A stretch of DNA of 64,000 bases, taken from Mycoplasmatales bacterium. Its GTDB lineage: Bacteria; Bacillota_I; Bacilli_A; Mycoplasmatales; Metamycoplasmataceae. Location of the stretch: the NCBI GenBank assembly GCA_013215685.1, contig JABSQU010000002.1, forward strand, positions 1 to 64,000, written 5' to 3'. Position 1 is the stretch's first letter, and every line of letters starts with the position of its first letter. Positions 56,136 through 63,337 of the stretch are shown piece by piece. The notes under the pieces are model-generated. The model worked only from the letters and a program-made list of their open reading frames with translations, searched no databases and was not told the origin of the DNA. Position numbers and translations under genes: made by a program.

Positions 56136-56174
56136 ATATATGAGAAAGTTTAATCAAAAATATATAATATGTTT

Positions 56175-56999
56175 ATGAATAATAAAATAAAGAGACATTT
56201 TTATAATGGAGAACATTATTTAATAAATGAAGAGAATAAAACAGTTGAAATTCTTCCGGAGTTTTATCAAAAATTAAAACAAAAAAAATTATGAAATAAA
56301 TTTGGGTTTAAAAAAATTGGAGGATCATCAATTGGCGATGTTCTTCTTGTAGATCAATACAAATCTCAATTCATAGCATTTTGTAGAATGATGTGAATAG
56401 GAATTCCAATTTTAGATAGAAAATATGTTGATGCTGGGATAGCTATAGAACCCAAAGTAATTAATGTAATTGAAAAGATATCTAAAAAATCTGTTGAAAC
56501 ATTTGATCCAGTTGAATATAATTATGATTTTTTTAGTGATAAAGATGATGTTGTGGGCGGATTGCCAGATGGCTTTATAAAAGAAGACAATCTTTTAATA
56601 GAAATTAAAACTACAGGCATTAAAAATTTTGAAAAATGAGAAAAATGAGGTATTCCAGCAGCTTATCACAAGCAAGCACAACTTTATTCTTATTTAATGG
56701 GAGCAAAAAAATATGCAATAGTGGCAACTTTTTTAGAAGAAGAAGATTATTTGAATCCATCTGAATTTCCCATTAACAAGAGAATGGTCAAATCATGGAA
56801 ATTTGATTTAGACATCACCAAAACTGAAGACGATATTAAAAAAGTAAAAGAATGATATTATCAATTTACAAATCAAAGAATTTCCCCATCTTATGACTTG
56901 AAAGTTGATTCTGATATGCTCGAATGATTAAAGCCAAGAAACGCTAACGAGTGAGAAGAATTAAAGAATAAGTGAATTATGGAGGGAAAAATACAATAA
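56175..56999 (+). CDS. putative YqaJ/RecB-like nuclease
   Basis: A 274-residue protein of the mycoplasma MAGa7180-like family (from memory). KIGGSSIGDVLLV, AFCRMMW, AGIAIEPKVI, VGGLPDGFI and LLIEIKTTG follow the pattern of the YqaJ/lambda-exonuclease PD-(D/E)xK fold: Asp of LPDG and Glu-Ile-Lys form the metal site. It probably acts on DNA in recombination, or as a phage-derived exonuclease. TATAAT at 56163-56168, 6 bases before ATG. Its stop overlaps the next ATG. Confidence 0.8.
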
Positions 57000-58639
57000 T
57001 GAAAACTATAATTATCGGGGGAGTAGCGGTTGGAGCAACCGCAGCAATGAAACTCAGAAGAAACAGTCCAGAAAATCAAGTAATTCTTTATGAAAAAGGA
57101 TCTGTTGTTTCTTTTTCAAATTGTGGACTACCGTATGGAATTTTTAATGATGAAATTTCCTCAAAATTGGCCCCAAAAGATACAAGCAAATTAACAAAAG
57201 CAGGTATTGAGGCTTTTGTAAATCATGAAGTTATAGAAATTAATGAAAAAGAAAAAAAAGTTGTTGTTCGAAATTTAATAAATGGAGAAATTTTTGAAGA
57301 TAATTATGACAAATTAATTTTAGCAATGGGAGCAAAATCTCTAAATCTTCCAATAGAAGGTTTAAAAAATGAAGAAAATGTGTATTCTTTAAGAACATAT
57401 GATGATCTAAAATTAATTAATAAAAAAATTAATAATAGAATGAGAAATGCCCTTATTATTGGAGCGGGTTTTATAGGAGTAGAAGTTGCAGAAACACTTG
57501 TTAAAAATGGCTTAAATGTCACAATAGTTGAAATGAGTAATAATACAACTGGTTTTGATATTGATTTTTCTTCATTAGTTGATGATACTTTAAGAAATAA
57601 CGGTATTGACTTAATAAAGGGTGATTCATTAAGTAATGTTGATTCAAAAAGAAAAATAGCAACAACAAATAGTGGTATTGAAATTAAGTATGATTTTATA
57701 ATAACGTCTGGAATTAAGCCGAATATTGATATTTTATATGGCACAAGTTTAGAATTAGAACACAACAGATTTATAAAAACTAATAAATACATGCAAACAT
57801 CAAATAATGATATATATGCAGGAGGAGATCTTACTTTGACGCCGCACTTAATTACTGGAGAAAAGTCATATCAGCCATATGCTCTTAATGCAAAAAATAA
57901 TGGTAGATTGATTGCTGATCATATTTCAGGTCTTAAAACAAAAGGGCAATTTCGTTCTTCAGGAGCGTCAATTTATAAGGTTTTCGGAGTTCCATATGGC
58001 AAAGCAGGAATAACAGAAAATGAAGCTAAGAAATATAATATAAGTCATAGGATCATAATGCCTACTGTTAATTCATCTGCATCATATTTAAATGGAACAA
58101 AAAAATTAATCTTTAAACTTATTTTTGGTAGCGAAGATAAAAAACTTTTAGGAATACAAGCGCAAGGTGAGCATGCTGATAGATTAATCGATTCATTTGC
58201 TGTGGCAATATACTCAAACTTAAAGATTGAAGATTTAGAAGAAATGAACTTTTCATATCAACCACATTTTTCAACAACATTAAGCCCTCTAAATATAGCG
58301 GCTCAAATTGCTAAAAAAGAAGATGAAGAAGGATTCATTTCTGTTTGTCCTTTCAATATTCCTAAAGAAGAAGTGATTGTAATCGATGTAAGAAGTCCAG
58401 AACAACACGAAAAAGGAAATGTAAGAGGTTCAATAAATATACCCTTCAATGATTTTTCTGAAAAAACTTTGCCTCAAAATAAAAAAGCAAATATATATGT
58501 TCATTGTAATTCTGGATTTACTTCTACTCTTGCAGCTGCAAAACTAAAAAAAATGGGTTACAAAAATGTTTTCAATGTTTATGGGGGAAATAATTTGTAC
58601 CAATCCATGTACCGAAACTTAAAACCAAAAAAACGCTAA
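56999..58639 (+). CDS. CoA-disulfide reductase with rhodanese domain
   Basis: A 546-residue flavoprotein. KTIIIGGVAVGATAAMKLRR is the FAD-binding Rossmann motif; SFSNCGLPY carries Cys42, the single redox cysteine of CoA-disulfide reductase. A second Rossmann, ALIIGAGFIGVEVAETL, binds NAD(P)H. Residues about 450-546 are a rhodanese domain: VIDVRSPEQHEKG and VHCNSGFTST with active Cys503. It reduces CoA disulfides or persulfides and may handle sulfur stress. The start is ATG 56999 (TAATG overlap); a GTG at 56972 would lie inside the nuclease gene. Confidence 0.94.
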   Translation: MKTIIIGGVAVGATAAMKLRRNSPENQVILYEKGSVVSFSNCGLPYGIFNDEISSKLAPKDTSKLTKAGIEAFVNHEVIEINEKEKKVVVRNLINGEIFEDNYDKLILAMGAKSLNLPIEGLKNEENVYSLRTYDDLKLINKKINNRMRNALIIGAGFIGVEVAETLVKNGLNVTIVEMSNNTTGFDIDFSSLVDDTLRNNGIDLIKGDSLSNVDSKRKIATTNSGIEIKYDFIITSGIKPNIDILYGTSLELEHNRFIKTNKYMQTSNNDIYAGGDLTLTPHLITGEKSYQPYALNAKNNGRLIADHISGLKTKGQFRSSGASIYKVFGVPYGKAGITENEAKKYNISHRIIMPTVNSSASYLNGTKKLIFKLIFGSEDKKLLGIQAQGEHADRLIDSFAVAIYSNLKIEDLEEMNFSYQPHFSTTLSPLNIAAQIAKKEDEEGFISVCPFNIPKEEVIVIDVRSPEQHEKGNVRGSINIPFNDFSEKTLPQNKKANIYVHCNSGFTSTLAAAKLKKMGYKNVFNVYGGNNLYQSMYRNLKPKKR

Positions 58640-58648
58640 TGCGTTTTT
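58629..58648. terminator. bidirectional terminator
   Basis: AAAAACGC / GCGTTTTT stem with loop TAAT; like the serS palindrome, it contains the stop codons of both convergent genes. Confidence 0.85.
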
Positions 58649-60240
58649 ATTTTTATATTTTCGAGGATAATTTCTCAAATCAACAAATATATTGTAAGGG
58701 GTCAGACATATCCAAATAATTCTTGAAGATATAGTTTTGAATTTAACGCATCAATCTTGCTTCCTAATATCGATGTTCCCATAATTCCTAAAATTAAAAC
58801 AGTTCTTGTAACATTCACAAATAGAAATGCTATATTTGCTGCAGCTTCTTTTGAAATAGAAGGCAAAATATAATATCTTACTCTTCAGATGAAACTATAT
58901 CCTTGTTTCTCAAGTTGATTGATTTTTCTAATTTGAATATTATTTATTGATCTGACAAATTGTTGAGATAGAATTGTTATGCTATGTAAAGAAACTGCAA
59001 TAATCGATAAGCTTATTGGAGATATAAAGTAAGCATTTAAAATTCTAAATATTAAAAATATGGGAATGACTCTGATTATAGAAATTAAAAATTTCACAAG
59101 TAATGCTAAGTAACTATTAACAATTTTTTGACTTGAAAAAGCAGCTACAATTACAGAAAATATTGTAGTTATGAAAACAATTACGTAGCATTGCTTAAAG
59201 ATATCAAATAACATAAATCATGGATTTTCATTTGCACTAGATGAAGACCATGAAGAGATATTCGGATTAAATAATTGTTCTATATAATTATTAAATCCGG
59301 AAATTCTTGAAAAATTTCATTCAAGTTGTGATATTGAATAAATAGCAATTACAACAAAAAATATTGCTGTGATTATTTTTATCATTTTTCTATAATTAAA
59401 TAAATGATATTTTTTAGTAAAATTTGTTGTTTTATCAGACATTATATATTTATTAAACAATCATATTACCATTTCAAAAAATAAAACTACTATCAAGAGA
59501 ACCAACAATGGATATCCGATATTTTCATAATGTAATGGTATATTTGAATTTATGAATTCACCGATACCAATAATCCCAAGTGATCCAAGTAAAGTTGATC
59601 ATCTTAAATTGGATTCAAAACTATACAAAAAAAGTGAAAAAATTTTATCATTGCTTCTTCCAATTATTTCCTTATTAAAAGCAATTAATGGTACTTGACC
59701 TTTTTTAATTGACATTTTATAAGAAAATTTATTCGCAGTTTCAAACATATCTGTTAAATATTTACTACTTCACAATCATGTAAATCAAGACAATATTAGA
59801 GTGGCTGCTAATTCCTTTTCAAAGCCTTCTTGTGTTGCATATATAAAAATAATTACCGGGAAAGCTCTTAAAAAAATTATTATTGCTTTAATCAAATAAC
59901 TAATTTTTCTAAAAATTTCCTTTGTTGAAATCACAGATGTTAAAATTCCCAAAATAAAACCAATTAGTGTTCCTAACGAAACGATTCTAATAGTGACAAA
60001 CATATACTTTATTGAATTATTTAATATTGATGAGGAAGGATAATTTTTATCATAATTATTAAATGAAAATAATTTTGAAATATTTGAATTTATTTTTGAG
60101 CTTGCAAAAGAATTTGTATTTCAATTAAAAGAGGCCAGAAAATAAACAAAAATAAAAAAAGAAAATACAAAAAAAACAATTAACAATTTTGATTTAATTT
60201 TATAATTATTTATTTTCATGTCATGCATTTTTTTATTCAT
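58636..60240 (-). CDS. ABC importer permease (P69/PhnE type)
   Basis: A 534-residue protein with two fused permease units. The first starts near residue 80 (FVTIRIVSLGTLIGFILG) and contains LLGSLGIIGIGEFI; the second starts near residue 343 and contains TVLILGIMGTSILGS. The repeated Gly-rich turn is the EAA-like coupling region. It resembles P69, the permease of the M. hyorhinis P37-P29-P69 operon. It is the last gene of the operon. ATG 60240 follows GAGG by 6 bases. Confidence 0.85.
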
Positions 60241-61396
60241 CATTTACCTCAACAGGAAAATAGTTTTTATTTTTATCAAAAAAATCTTTTTCAACTTTTT
60301 TAATTATTTCTATCATGTGATTTAATTTTTCATCATTGATCGAGAAAATATAATTATTTTTTAAAATAGTTAATTGATTTTTCTCGAGATTGAATTTTCA
60401 AATCAAATGCGCTAAATCTCAATAATAAGAATGAATCATGCTTCATTCAAAATCTATTAAGTAAGCTCTGGAAGTTGAAAATATTACATTTTTTGAATTT
60501 AAGTCTCCATGAGACATGACTTTAATTTCATTATCAAAATAATTATCATATTCATATTCTTCTATTTCGTTTGACAAGTTGATTTTATGTATTTTATTGA
60601 TTTCTTTTATTAAATTTTTGAGATCATCATCAGTCAATTTTTCTTTTCTAGATCCAATATAGAACTTTTTTAAATATGCATTTTTATATTTTTTATAATA
60701 ATCTTTTTTATAATGTGTCTTACTTACAAAATTTAATTCTTTTTCGTTTGAAGAATTATTATTAAAATGAATTTTTAAATGAATATTATTATTTATGTAT
60801 GAAATGTTGGAACCATCATGAATATATTTTCCAAGTTTTGTGCAATTATTTTCTTCAAATATATTTAAAGCTACATAAGTTGATTTTAAAACATGATCAA
60901 AGAAAAGATTTCAAGATTGATTTACTTCGCTTTTATAATTAATTATATTTACTTTGCTCTTTTCAAGAATCTCTTGATATTTCTTTTTATTTAATTCTGA
61001 AATTTCTTTTTTATTTTTATAAAAAAGCGAAAGATTATTTGGAATTTTTTGTAATAAATTTATTTTTCAAGACAAACCAATGATTCATTTAAATTGAGTA
61101 GAATTTTTTACTATAAAATTCATTTGATTTGAAAATGCAAATACATAAATGGGCATTTTATAATTTTTTTTAATATATTCTAGCGAAAGTCTAACTGAGT
61201 CATTTGTCATTTCTCCTACAATAATAGAAGCAACAACAAAATTTTTAATTTGATTATTCTTTAGATGATCAAATATATTTATATCTTCGTTTGATTTTTT
61301 TTCTAAATTAAAAAATAAAAACAATGGAGAATTTTTCCCAATATCTCCTTCTTTTCACATATGTATATTTTTTTCTTTTAATTTTATTCTATTCAT
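60233..61396 (-). CDS. APH-fold small-molecule kinase with extra N-terminal domain
   Basis: A 387-residue protein. Near residue 292, MSHGDLNSKNVIF is the Brenner-type catalytic loop (HGDxxxxN) and YLIDFEWSMIHSYYWDLAH the DFE metal-binding site, as in choline, ethanolamine and thiamine (ThiK) kinases. The first ~120 residues are not part of that fold (FVVASIIVGEMTNDSVRLSL) and I do not recognise them. It overlaps both operon neighbours and is under the TPP riboswitch, so a thiamine kinase role is likely; choline kinase is the alternative. It is longer than typical ThiK (~270). Confidence 0.72.
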
Positions 61397-62096
61397 AAGC
61401 ACCTTTAATCTTATTTAAATTGCTATTATTGAATACTAAATCGAAAAAAATTCCTTTATTTTTTATTGCTAATACTCTATGCCCTTTTTTAATAATCTCT
61501 AAATCATGGGCTACAATAATTGCTGTGCTTTTACTTTTTAAAATAGCATTTATAACATCTTCTGAATTTTTTATATCTAAAGAAGAGGTTATTTCATCGG
61601 CTAAAATTATTTCCGAATTTTTTAAAAATGATAGTGCGATCTGAACTCTTTTTCTTTCTCCACCAGATAATTCTGACATCAAAGTTTGGGCTTTATTTTC
61701 AATTTTTAATTTAGCTAAAGATTTATATATTTTTTTTATATCATCATTTGTTGCTATGCCTAAAAATTTAAGAATTTTATTTTTGGGTTTCATGAGTCTA
61801 TATAAATTATTAAATACAGTTTTATCTTCTATAAAATCATCTATTTGACTTATTAACGATATTTTATTTGAAAGATTTCTTCTCTCCTTTTTGTTTAAAT
61901 TTCCAGTAATTTTATTATTGATTTTAACACTACCTTCTTGATAATTTTTAATTAAAAGACTATCTAAAATTGAAGATTTACCTGCTCCTGATTTTCCAAT
62001 CAAAAATATTTTTTCTCCCTTATCGATTTTTAGATTTATATTTTTAACAATTATTTCATTTTTATATTTTATTTCTAAATTATTTATTTCAATCAT
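61389..62096 (-). CDS. ABC importer ATP-binding protein (P29/PhnC type)
   Basis: A 235-residue ATPase. LIGKSGAGKSSILDSLL (Walker A), ISLISQIDDFI (Q loop), ELSGGERKRVQIALSF (signature), ILADEITSSLD (Walker B) and VAHD (switch His). It corresponds to P29 of the P37 operon and to PhnC. It drives uptake through the permease two genes downstream. Confidence 0.92.
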   Translation of the reverse strand: MIEINNLEIKYKNEIIVKNINLKIDKGEKIFLIGKSGAGKSSILDSLLIKNYQEGSVKINNKITGNLNKKERRNLSNKISLISQIDDFIEDKTVFNNLYRLMKPKNKILKFLGIATNDDIKKIYKSLAKLKIENKAQTLMSELSGGERKRVQIALSFLKNSEIILADEITSSLDIKNSEDVINAILKSKSTAIIVAHDLEIIKKGHRVLAIKNKGIFFDLVFNNSNLNKIKGAYE

Positions 62097-62098
62097 TT

Positions 62099-63226
62099 TT
62101 ACCTCATCACCTTTTCAAATTTTTTATATACTTCATTGTGCGAATCGGTGATTGATTCATAATTATAGTATCCAATTTTAGGTCCATAGGTGTCGTTATT
62201 ATTTTTTGCTAGATTTATGAAAGCTTCAGCAATTATTTTTCCTTCTTCATTATTAAAATTACTTCTAAAAAAACCAACGTCATATTTTATTGGTTCTGTT
62301 ACCATCAAAAGCTCGATTCTTTTATTTTGATCGGTAGTTTGGAATGGTTTATCAAATAATGCTTTATTGGTTCAAACAAATGATCCCTCATCATCAAAAG
62401 CTATTTTGTAATTTTCATCTTTTCCAATATCCTTTGCTTTTCCATTTTTATTTTTGCTAGGATTGTCTAAAAATTCTTGACTTAAAGTTTCAAAGGAATT
62501 TTTTCCAAAATGTTTTTTTAACAATTTTTCTTGTAGTATAAATTTCCCGCCACTTTTATTATTTCCATGAATTATCCCAAAACTTAAGAATTTTTCTCAA
62601 TTTTTATCATCTCAAGACTTTCTTATTTCCTTTAATTCATCATTATTTCCACAAATTAAAATCATCCCTCTATAAAAAGGAGTAAAGGAATTTTGGTAAT
62701 ATTTTTTATAAATTGATCCATCAAATTCAGAATTTGAAATATTTTGATAGTTTTTGAGAGATTCTGTTCCTAAAATAGCTTGTTGGTATAATGGGTCATT
62801 TTCTTTTCCATTTAAGTAATAATTTTCTCCCTTATCTCAAATAAATTTTTTTGTTTCCGTTTGCAAAAGAGGCAATAAATCTCCTTCTTTCGAGAAATTA
62901 TTTATAGAAGCTATAGATGATATTCCAAAGTCATATTTTCTATTTACTACATTATCAACAATTATATAGTCGTCTGATACATTGTTTTGGATATCGATTG
63001 ATACATGGGGTTTATCAATTTTCTTTTCATCAATTATTTTGTTAATTTCATTTTCTAATGCAATTTTAAATGCACCTTTATCAAAATTTAATTGTGTTGT
63101 TTTTAAATTTATTGAAACATTTTTATCTCAATTTGATGATTCTTGATTTGCTGAACACGAGACAATAAAAGCGAATGATGAAATCATTGGTATTGTTGTT
63201 CCAAATTTAAGAATTGTCCTTTTCAT
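62099..63226 (-). CDS. P37/Cypl-like substrate-binding lipoprotein
   Basis: A 375-residue lipoprotein. KRTILKFGTTIPMISS leads to the lipobox FIVSC with Cys24. The rest is a two-lobed binding protein of the phosphonate/P37 type. M. hyorhinis P37 (Cypl) is the closest model and binds thiamine pyrophosphate. Here the gene sits under a TPP riboswitch, which independently supports thiamine or TPP as ligand. Shine-Dalgarno GGAGG is 3 bases from the ATG. It is the first of four genes, each overlapping or touching the next. Confidence 0.85.
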
Positions 63227-63238
63227 TTTCCTCCATAT

Positions 63239-63335
63239 AAAAAGACATAAGCAAAGAACTCACTACGTAGGTATTATCCCAATCAGCTAATTAGAGTGCA
63301 TCTCAACCAGAAAATCTAGTGCCCCTGTCTTTTTT
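63239..63335 (-). promoter_or_regulatory. TPP riboswitch (THI element)
   Basis: The minus-strand leader of the P37-type operon contains, in order, GGGGCA, a hairpin CTAGA/TCTGG, TTGAGA (consensus CUGAGA) and TGCACTC, then GCTGATTGGGATAATACC and TACGTAGTGA, matching the consensus CUGAUCUGGAUAAUACC...GCGUAGGGA. The outer helix AAAAAGACA / TGTCTTTTT (63334-63326 with 63247-63239) encloses the whole aptamer and ends 4 bases before Shine-Dalgarno GGAGG (63234-63230). Binding of TPP therefore probably controls translation of the importer operon. Confidence 0.93.
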
Positions 63336-63337
63336 AA

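Follow-up and report, generated by a model that had tools for sequence, protein, structure and literature searches.

An ABC importer operon for thiamine or ThDP, whose lipoprotein is p37 (Cypl), is known from Mycoplasma. In the parts of the syn3A metabolic model that concern this vitamin, the Cypl protein of M. hyorhinis is said to bind ThDP, which makes direct uptake possible, and direct ThDP uptake is assumed after the deletion of thiamine diphosphokinase (PMC6609329). The thiamine entries of the M. gallisepticum model include added thiamine kinase and TMP kinase reactions (PMC3764002), and the pertinent section on Hepatoplasmataceae MAGs gives thiamine kinase, TMP kinase and TPK as undetected (PMC10928387). 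Our search of open-access titles and abstracts returned nothing on an esterase or a kinase of the Cypl operon.

We analysed a stretch of 64,000 nucleotides from a Mycoplasmatales bacterium (contig JABSQU010000002.1, positions 1 to 64,000, hereafter called the window), which harbours an operon of this type with one additional gene. We regard the latter as the likely result of a fusion between two otherwise separate genes of thiamine/TPP importer operons, one for a serine hydrolase of the PF00756 kind and the other for a small APH-type kinase, followed here by decay of the hydrolase half.

The importer operon and its additional gene

The operon runs on the minus strand in the order TPP riboswitch, Cypl lipoprotein, ATPase, fusion gene and PhnE-like permease. 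The riboswitch aptamer in the 5' leader (63243..63336, minus strand) matches Rfam RF00059 with 54.9 bits for a gathering score of 54.3 (E 5.3e-8). The first gene (62099..63226, minus strand) codes for a Cypl/p37-type thiamine (pyrophosphate)-binding lipoprotein, identified by Pfam CypI (6.6e-81), NCBIfam MG289_thiam_LP (315 bits, cut-off 225) and PDB entries 3e78, 3e79 and 3eki (E 1.6e-60). The ATPase (61389..62096, minus strand) matches Pfam ABC_tran (1.3e-26), its best NCBIfam family being PhnC, under the cut-off. The permease, whose gene was taken from the list of open reading frames (58636..60243, minus strand), matches NCBIfam PhnE at 1.8e-35, below the equivalog cut-off. The presence of a Cypl lipoprotein, an ATPase and a PhnE-like permease under a TPP riboswitch identifies a Cypl-type thiamine importer operon.

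The fusion gene is a single frame (window 60233-61396, minus strand) of 387 codons plus stop, with its ATG at 61396, which overlaps the ATPase frame by 8 bases and the permease frame by 11. Reading TGA as Trp is needed for this frame, in which there are seven TGA codons. Residues 1-176 (60869..61396, minus strand) form an N-terminal domain that, by homology to the corresponding domain of a congener, appears to be a decayed, esterase-like alpha/beta-hydrolase. Residues 177-387 and the stop codon (60233..60868, minus strand) correspond to a C-terminal APH-type kinase, as judged from a Pfam APH match just above the cut-off (23.8 bits for 23.2), from alignment with free-standing operon kinases and from its position in clade A of a kinase tree (see below).

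On the opposite strand, the operon is adjoined by a gene for a pyridine nucleotide-disulphide oxidoreductase with a C-terminal rhodanese domain (window 56972-58639). A gene for a YqaJ-like viral recombinase-domain protein (window 56169-56999; 24.1 bits, cut-off 22) lies between an FtsX-like permease gene and that of the oxidoreductase. Elsewhere in the same genome (contig C7, L071:3964-8591), a second lipoprotein, ATPase and permease-like locus gives a weak CypI match (E 8.9e-6) and possibly encodes an importer of another substrate.

A separate domain precedes the kinase

The Pfam APH match in the window protein is restricted to residues 294-336, a part of the C-lobe. Because the match spans C-lobe motifs only, and since APH N-lobes diverge, the upstream region might be taken as merely the N-lobe of the kinase. 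We give this reading practically no chance. Free-standing kinases of 227-231 residues (L105, L106 and L107) have BLAST matches to the full window protein only inside residues 179-332, and they align over their full length with residues 177-387 when that segment alone is given to the aligner. As they correspond to residues 177-387, about 176 residues lie outside the kinase and do not constitute its N-lobe. The N-domain of the congener, for its part, has a homologue without a kinase, and both halves thus occur free-standing. An earlier note, made from the DNA alone, had placed the first ~120-140 residues outside the APH fold: it was right about a separate domain, but the alignments of free-standing kinases extend this domain to about 176 residues. 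The two strings that it quoted, FVVASIIVGEMTND and PIYVFAF, are present in the protein, and its proposal of an alpha/beta-type domain ahead of the kinase is borne out by the free-standing kinases and by a separate gene homologous to the congener N-domain.

Relatives of the fusion and of its halves

Eight of the 135 family genomes were matched by the full window protein: the window genome itself, the congener (G001; residues 73-375) and six genomes with the kinase part only. The congener is an uncultured isolate, LS06H_Bin3 (contig CAKNAO010000030.1), and its fusion is of the same make-up except that the N-domain is longer. Searched in turn against 395 class genomes, the congener protein matched 76 of them. 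No listed match outside the window genome begins before congener residue 218, which means that all of these start where the N-domain ends or beyond. The congener fusion gene sits after the permease gene, and the next gene is one that we take, from recognising its sequence, to be uvrB-like. A TPP riboswitch precedes the Cypl gene in this genome, on a contig other than that of the fusion (L070).

We then looked at a sample of 20 Cypl loci, one from each of 20 genomes among the 113 in which Cypl was matched. One of them, that of G055 (genus g10), harbours a separate 225-residue N-domain gene that overlaps the end of the permease gene, in an operon whose Cypl gene is preceded by a TPP riboswitch (L113). 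The product of this gene is 52% identical to the fused N-domain of the congener. In three other loci (G118, G119 and G121, genus g12), the free-standing kinases of 227-231 residues mentioned above are encoded directly downstream of the permease; here, the search for a TPP riboswitch gave nothing at or above the gathering score.

Only three genomes among the 135 of the family carry the N-domain. A three-row profile of this domain retrieved its own three members from them and two further matches at E about 0.015. A two-row profile (G055 and the congener) gave strong matches in 320 order genomes for its own two members only, along with six weak ones (5e-4 to 0.03), and missed the window copy. A pattern search with the back-translated profile yielded 0 relatives in 498 candidate stretches, probably because the patterns held Trp, which is written TGA here. 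PHROGs gave one weak match in the congener kinase half and one in G055 at E 0.06, neither of known function, PADLOC gave none, and the single match among plasmid records was to the kinase half.

Esterase-like features of the less decayed N-domains

The best AlphaFold2 model of the congener domain, built from a two-row alignment, is only moderately confident, with a pLDDT of 60 and a pTM of 0.66, the four other models having pLDDT values of 36-55. A Foldseek search of the PDB with this model returned 155 matches at E<=0.001, with alpha/beta hydrolases on top (lipases, esterases and prolyl-oligopeptidase relatives). The VIA-align 2 Z values were 12.1 for Lpx1, 12.0 for PfeE, 11.8 for IroE, 11.4 for Fes and 11.3 for BES, with an rmsd of about 4 over 185-194 residues. 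As these values are nearly tied, they support the fold and not one particular family.

The family was approached through profile comparison. Aligned by hhalign with 30 PF00756 proteins of the class, the G055 and congener profile scored 42.5 (probability 83, 199 columns), whereas 300 column shuffles averaged 13.8 and reached 22.8 at most, and a kinase alignment used as the template gave 15.2. In G055, the relevant motifs are D39-G40-Q41, S127 in GFSLSG, E168 in GSKE and H201 in KHTFKSW. The DGQ strand, GxSxxG elbow, G-x-x-E and H-x4-W of the G055 and congener copies coincide with esterase motifs, and the Ser-Glu-His triad motifs (GxSxxG, G-x-x-E and H-x4-W) are thus present in two of the three copies. 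Among the 30 esterases, DGQ is found in 18 (25 if the D-G/A-Q/H/E variant is considered), the GxSxG-G/A elbow in all 30, and H-x4-W within the last 70 residues in 28. In the esterase columns aligned to G055, G-x-x-E occurs in 13 and H-x4-W in 15 of 16 rows, one row of this set being in the wrong frame. The elbow is in register under hhalign and shifted under MAFFT. HMMER found no match to Pfam Esterase in the congener or G055 copies, and neither the congener N-domain nor the two-row profile retrieved any sequence from the PDB. Altogether, from the fold predicted for the congener domain and from the profile and motifs of both copies, the congener and G055 N-domains look like PF00756-like esterase domains.

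These features bear on a proposal of the earlier note, namely that a fused domain transferring thiamine phosphate or pyrophosphate would complete TPP synthesis within one operon. Such a domain could be of the TPK, ThiL or ThiE kind. The window genome has three Transket_pyr matches without any match to TPK or ThiL, and some source of TPP must therefore exist. The list of Pfam matches of the N-domain (E<=10) nevertheless contains none of TPK, ThiL and ThiE, bearing in mind that the HMMER filters drop most matches above about 0.1. The thiamine pyrophosphokinase family (PF04263) is matched neither by the N-domain nor in its own genome (0/1) nor in the family genomes (0/135), the same search being positive in 7 of 14 control genomes; for ThiL, with no match in the window genome, all 14 controls were positive. 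The homologues of the domain resemble hydrolases and carry a Ser-Glu-His triad, and TPP might be supplied by direct uptake if Cypl binds ThDP as described for M. hyorhinis in the portion of the syn3A work mentioned above (PMC6609329). We therefore consider a transferase identity very improbable.

Equally improbable is a FAD-synthetase-like (HUP nucleotidyltransferase) domain, which was prompted by a weak Pfam FAD_syn match of the window protein (residues 75-149, E 0.0062, 16.8 bits; E 0.029 with the whole protein). The score is well under the cut-off of 27, the match covers only positions 32-108 of the 158 of the model, and FAD_syn is listed neither for the congener domain (E<=10) nor for G055 (E<=1). 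The identification as FAD synthetase (PF06574) was dropped on account of this score and of the lack of a listed match in the two homologues.

The N-domain of the window protein

The window copy is homologous to the N-domain of the congener, with which its Smith-Waterman score is 108, a value reached by 0 of 1000 shuffles (52.6 +- 9.3). With the two-row profile, it obtained an hhalign score of 27.0 over 24 columns only; 0 of 300 shuffles scored as high (maximum 24.1), and the kinase-half control gave 17.9. HMMER with the same profile missed it. Local alignment with G055 is weak, as 61 of 1000 shuffles (BLOSUM62) and 329 of 1000 (BLOSUM45) scored as high; in global alignments, the corresponding numbers were 0 and 17 of 1000. 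Compared directly with the 30 esterases, the window N-domain gave an hhalign score of 15.5, within the range of its shuffles (mean 12.9, maximum 22.1) and lower than the 18.7 of the window kinase half. An AlphaFold2 model of the whole window protein, from a two-row alignment, has a pLDDT of 36. The window domain is thus connected to the esterases only through one congener, which is the chief weakness of our reading.

The window copy is about 50 residues shorter than its homologues. FFFDGQ is replaced by FFN and KHTFKSW by KSEVNQSW, with SEVN facing KHTF, and the elbow reads AFSNQ. Its catalytic triad is incomplete, the DGQ motif and the His being absent. S89 and E131 align with the Ser and Glu in MAFFT, and the Ser is placed differently by Smith-Waterman. 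Since the domain is shortened and has lost DGQ and the His, it is probably the inactive remnant of an esterase.

Such a loss of the active site could also mean that the hydrolase never took part in thiamine metabolism, an unrelated esterase gene having landed at the end of the operon and been carried along by the fusion, so that the window domain would be decaying ballast. The presence of the N-domain in three genomes only, and its lower identity between the two fusions compared with the kinase (31% vs 40%), point in the same direction. However, in two genera the domain has stayed in frame downstream of a TPP riboswitch, in genes whose reading frames overlap, and two of the three copies have kept the triad motifs. 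We hold this alternative to be unlikely, though well worth considering, and prefer the fusion of two importer-operon genes with later decay of the hydrolase.

The kinase half and its clade

On the strength of its motifs HGDLNSKN and IDFE (LIDFE), both intact, the C-terminal domain of the window protein is an APH-type kinase. That of the congener is under the Pfam APH cut-off, with 19.2 bits. A tree of 35 kinase domains, midpoint-rooted for drawing only, separates clade A (21 rows) from clade B (14 rows) with a support of 100/100 for the split. In clade A, the window and congener kinases are joined by those of the g12 operons, by single kinases from other genera and by the N-halves of the double kinases; clade B comprises the C-halves of the double kinases together with four single ThiK/choline-kinase-like proteins. 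None of the seven NCBIfam families listed for the window protein (E<=1) is ThiK (TIGR02721).

Double APH kinases of 470-544 residues, with an N-half in clade A and a C-half in clade B, are encoded beside the Cypl importer operon in five genomes of genus g11, at L149:5789-7198, L145:2281-3723, L146:1726-3357, L147:2049-3578 and L148:2089-3561; in several of their halves, motif patterns detected no HxDxxxxN or DFE. G020, a genome in which Cypl is not matched, has a clade-A kinase gene next to that of a ThiK/choline-kinase-like clade-B kinase, in divergent orientation (L162:2834-4288). The window genome itself codes for a second APH-type kinase (contig C72, L159:3121-3924), which matches TIGR02721 (E 1.9e-19, 69.8 bits for a cut-off of 299) and also Choline_kinase.

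The genetic environment suggests that clade-A kinases are linked to the importer. Besides the g12 loci, we examined six loci of genus g11, picked because their kinase and Cypl matches lay a few kilobases apart. In five of them (G073, G077, G114, G059 and G090), the double-kinase gene is convergent with the permease gene and adjoins it; in the sixth (G046), other genes lie between the two. Clade-A profile matches at E 1e-14 or better were also found in genomes without Cypl match, among them G003, G020-G023 (G022 excepted, as it does match Cypl), G051-G053 and G122, and in many genomes with Cypl the clade-A profile is matched only weakly. For genus g11, a link of clade-A kinases with weaker Cypl scores was considered by eye only, and it is disfavoured by genus g6, with strong Cypl scores and a kinase. 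In the congener, whose genome is 89% complete, the kinase profile matches once, in the fusion. G055 has no strong match to the clade-A profile (best E 2.5e-4); as it nevertheless possesses the hydrolase, the two halves need not act in one pathway.

Possible roles in thiamine metabolism

In the most likely mechanism, the importer would bring in a thiamine compound, and an intact hydrolase, as in the ancestor, G055 and the congener, would cleave an ester or a related bond of imported thiamine or a related compound, presumably in the cytoplasm. The kinase would then phosphorylate the product, a substrate and an order of action that we infer. In the window organism, the hydrolase site would be dead, the domain persisting perhaps as a shrunken scaffold or as a ligand-holding part, and only the kinase half, probably still active, would be expected to act.

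A broader reading can be envisaged, to which we accord a rather slim chance: in mycoplasmas lacking TPK, the operon would represent an unrecognised thiamine-salvage route, in which a cytoplasmic esterase would free thiamine or its phosphate from an imported ester and clade-A APH kinases would phosphorylate it, possibly from TMP to TPP. These kinases would include the one joined to the esterase in the window, the free-standing ones encoded after the importer in g12, and those that form a double protein with a ThiK/choline-kinase-like clade-B kinase next to the importer in g11. A replacement of TPK by two kinases, clade B converting thiamine to TMP and clade A converting TMP to TPP, was not adopted as our main reading, because the matches of clade-B proteins include choline kinase besides ThiK, because the congener has one kinase-profile match and G055 none that is strong, and because genomes without Cypl match also have strong kinase matches.

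The analysis turns an anonymous N-terminus into a testable enzyme pair in a riboswitch-controlled vitamin B1 importer operon. The published models, in their treatment of thiamine, bridge the TPK gap by assuming direct ThDP uptake or by adding kinase reactions, and the importer-side clade-A kinases provide concrete candidates. The gene also illustrates a fusion followed by the decay of one half.

Comparison with known systems

The esterase-like domain, the APH kinase and the p37 importer operon are each of a known kind, and it is their variant here that is new. Like the Mycoplasma p37 (Cypl) thiamine/ThDP importer operon, the window operon has a Cypl lipoprotein, an ATPase, a PhnE-like permease and a TPP riboswitch; it differs by the hydrolase-kinase fusion gene added between the ATPase and the permease. 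With Pfam Esterase (PF00756), the family of enterochelin esterase Fes, IroE, PfeE and BES, the N-domains share the alpha/beta-hydrolase fold predicted for the congener as well as the DGQ, GxSxxG, G-x-x-E and H-x4-W motifs of the congener and G055 copies. Unlike those esterases, they have no direct Pfam match and are encoded in a vitamin importer operon, adjacent or fused to a kinase, and the window copy is shorter, with DGQ and the His lost. Finally, the window kinase resembles APH/choline-kinase-type kinases (PF01636; ThiK, TIGR02721) by its HGDxxxKN and IDFE motifs and a Pfam APH score barely above the cut-off, but it belongs to clade A, apart from the sampled clade-B domains (100/100), with no ThiK among its listed NCBIfam matches.
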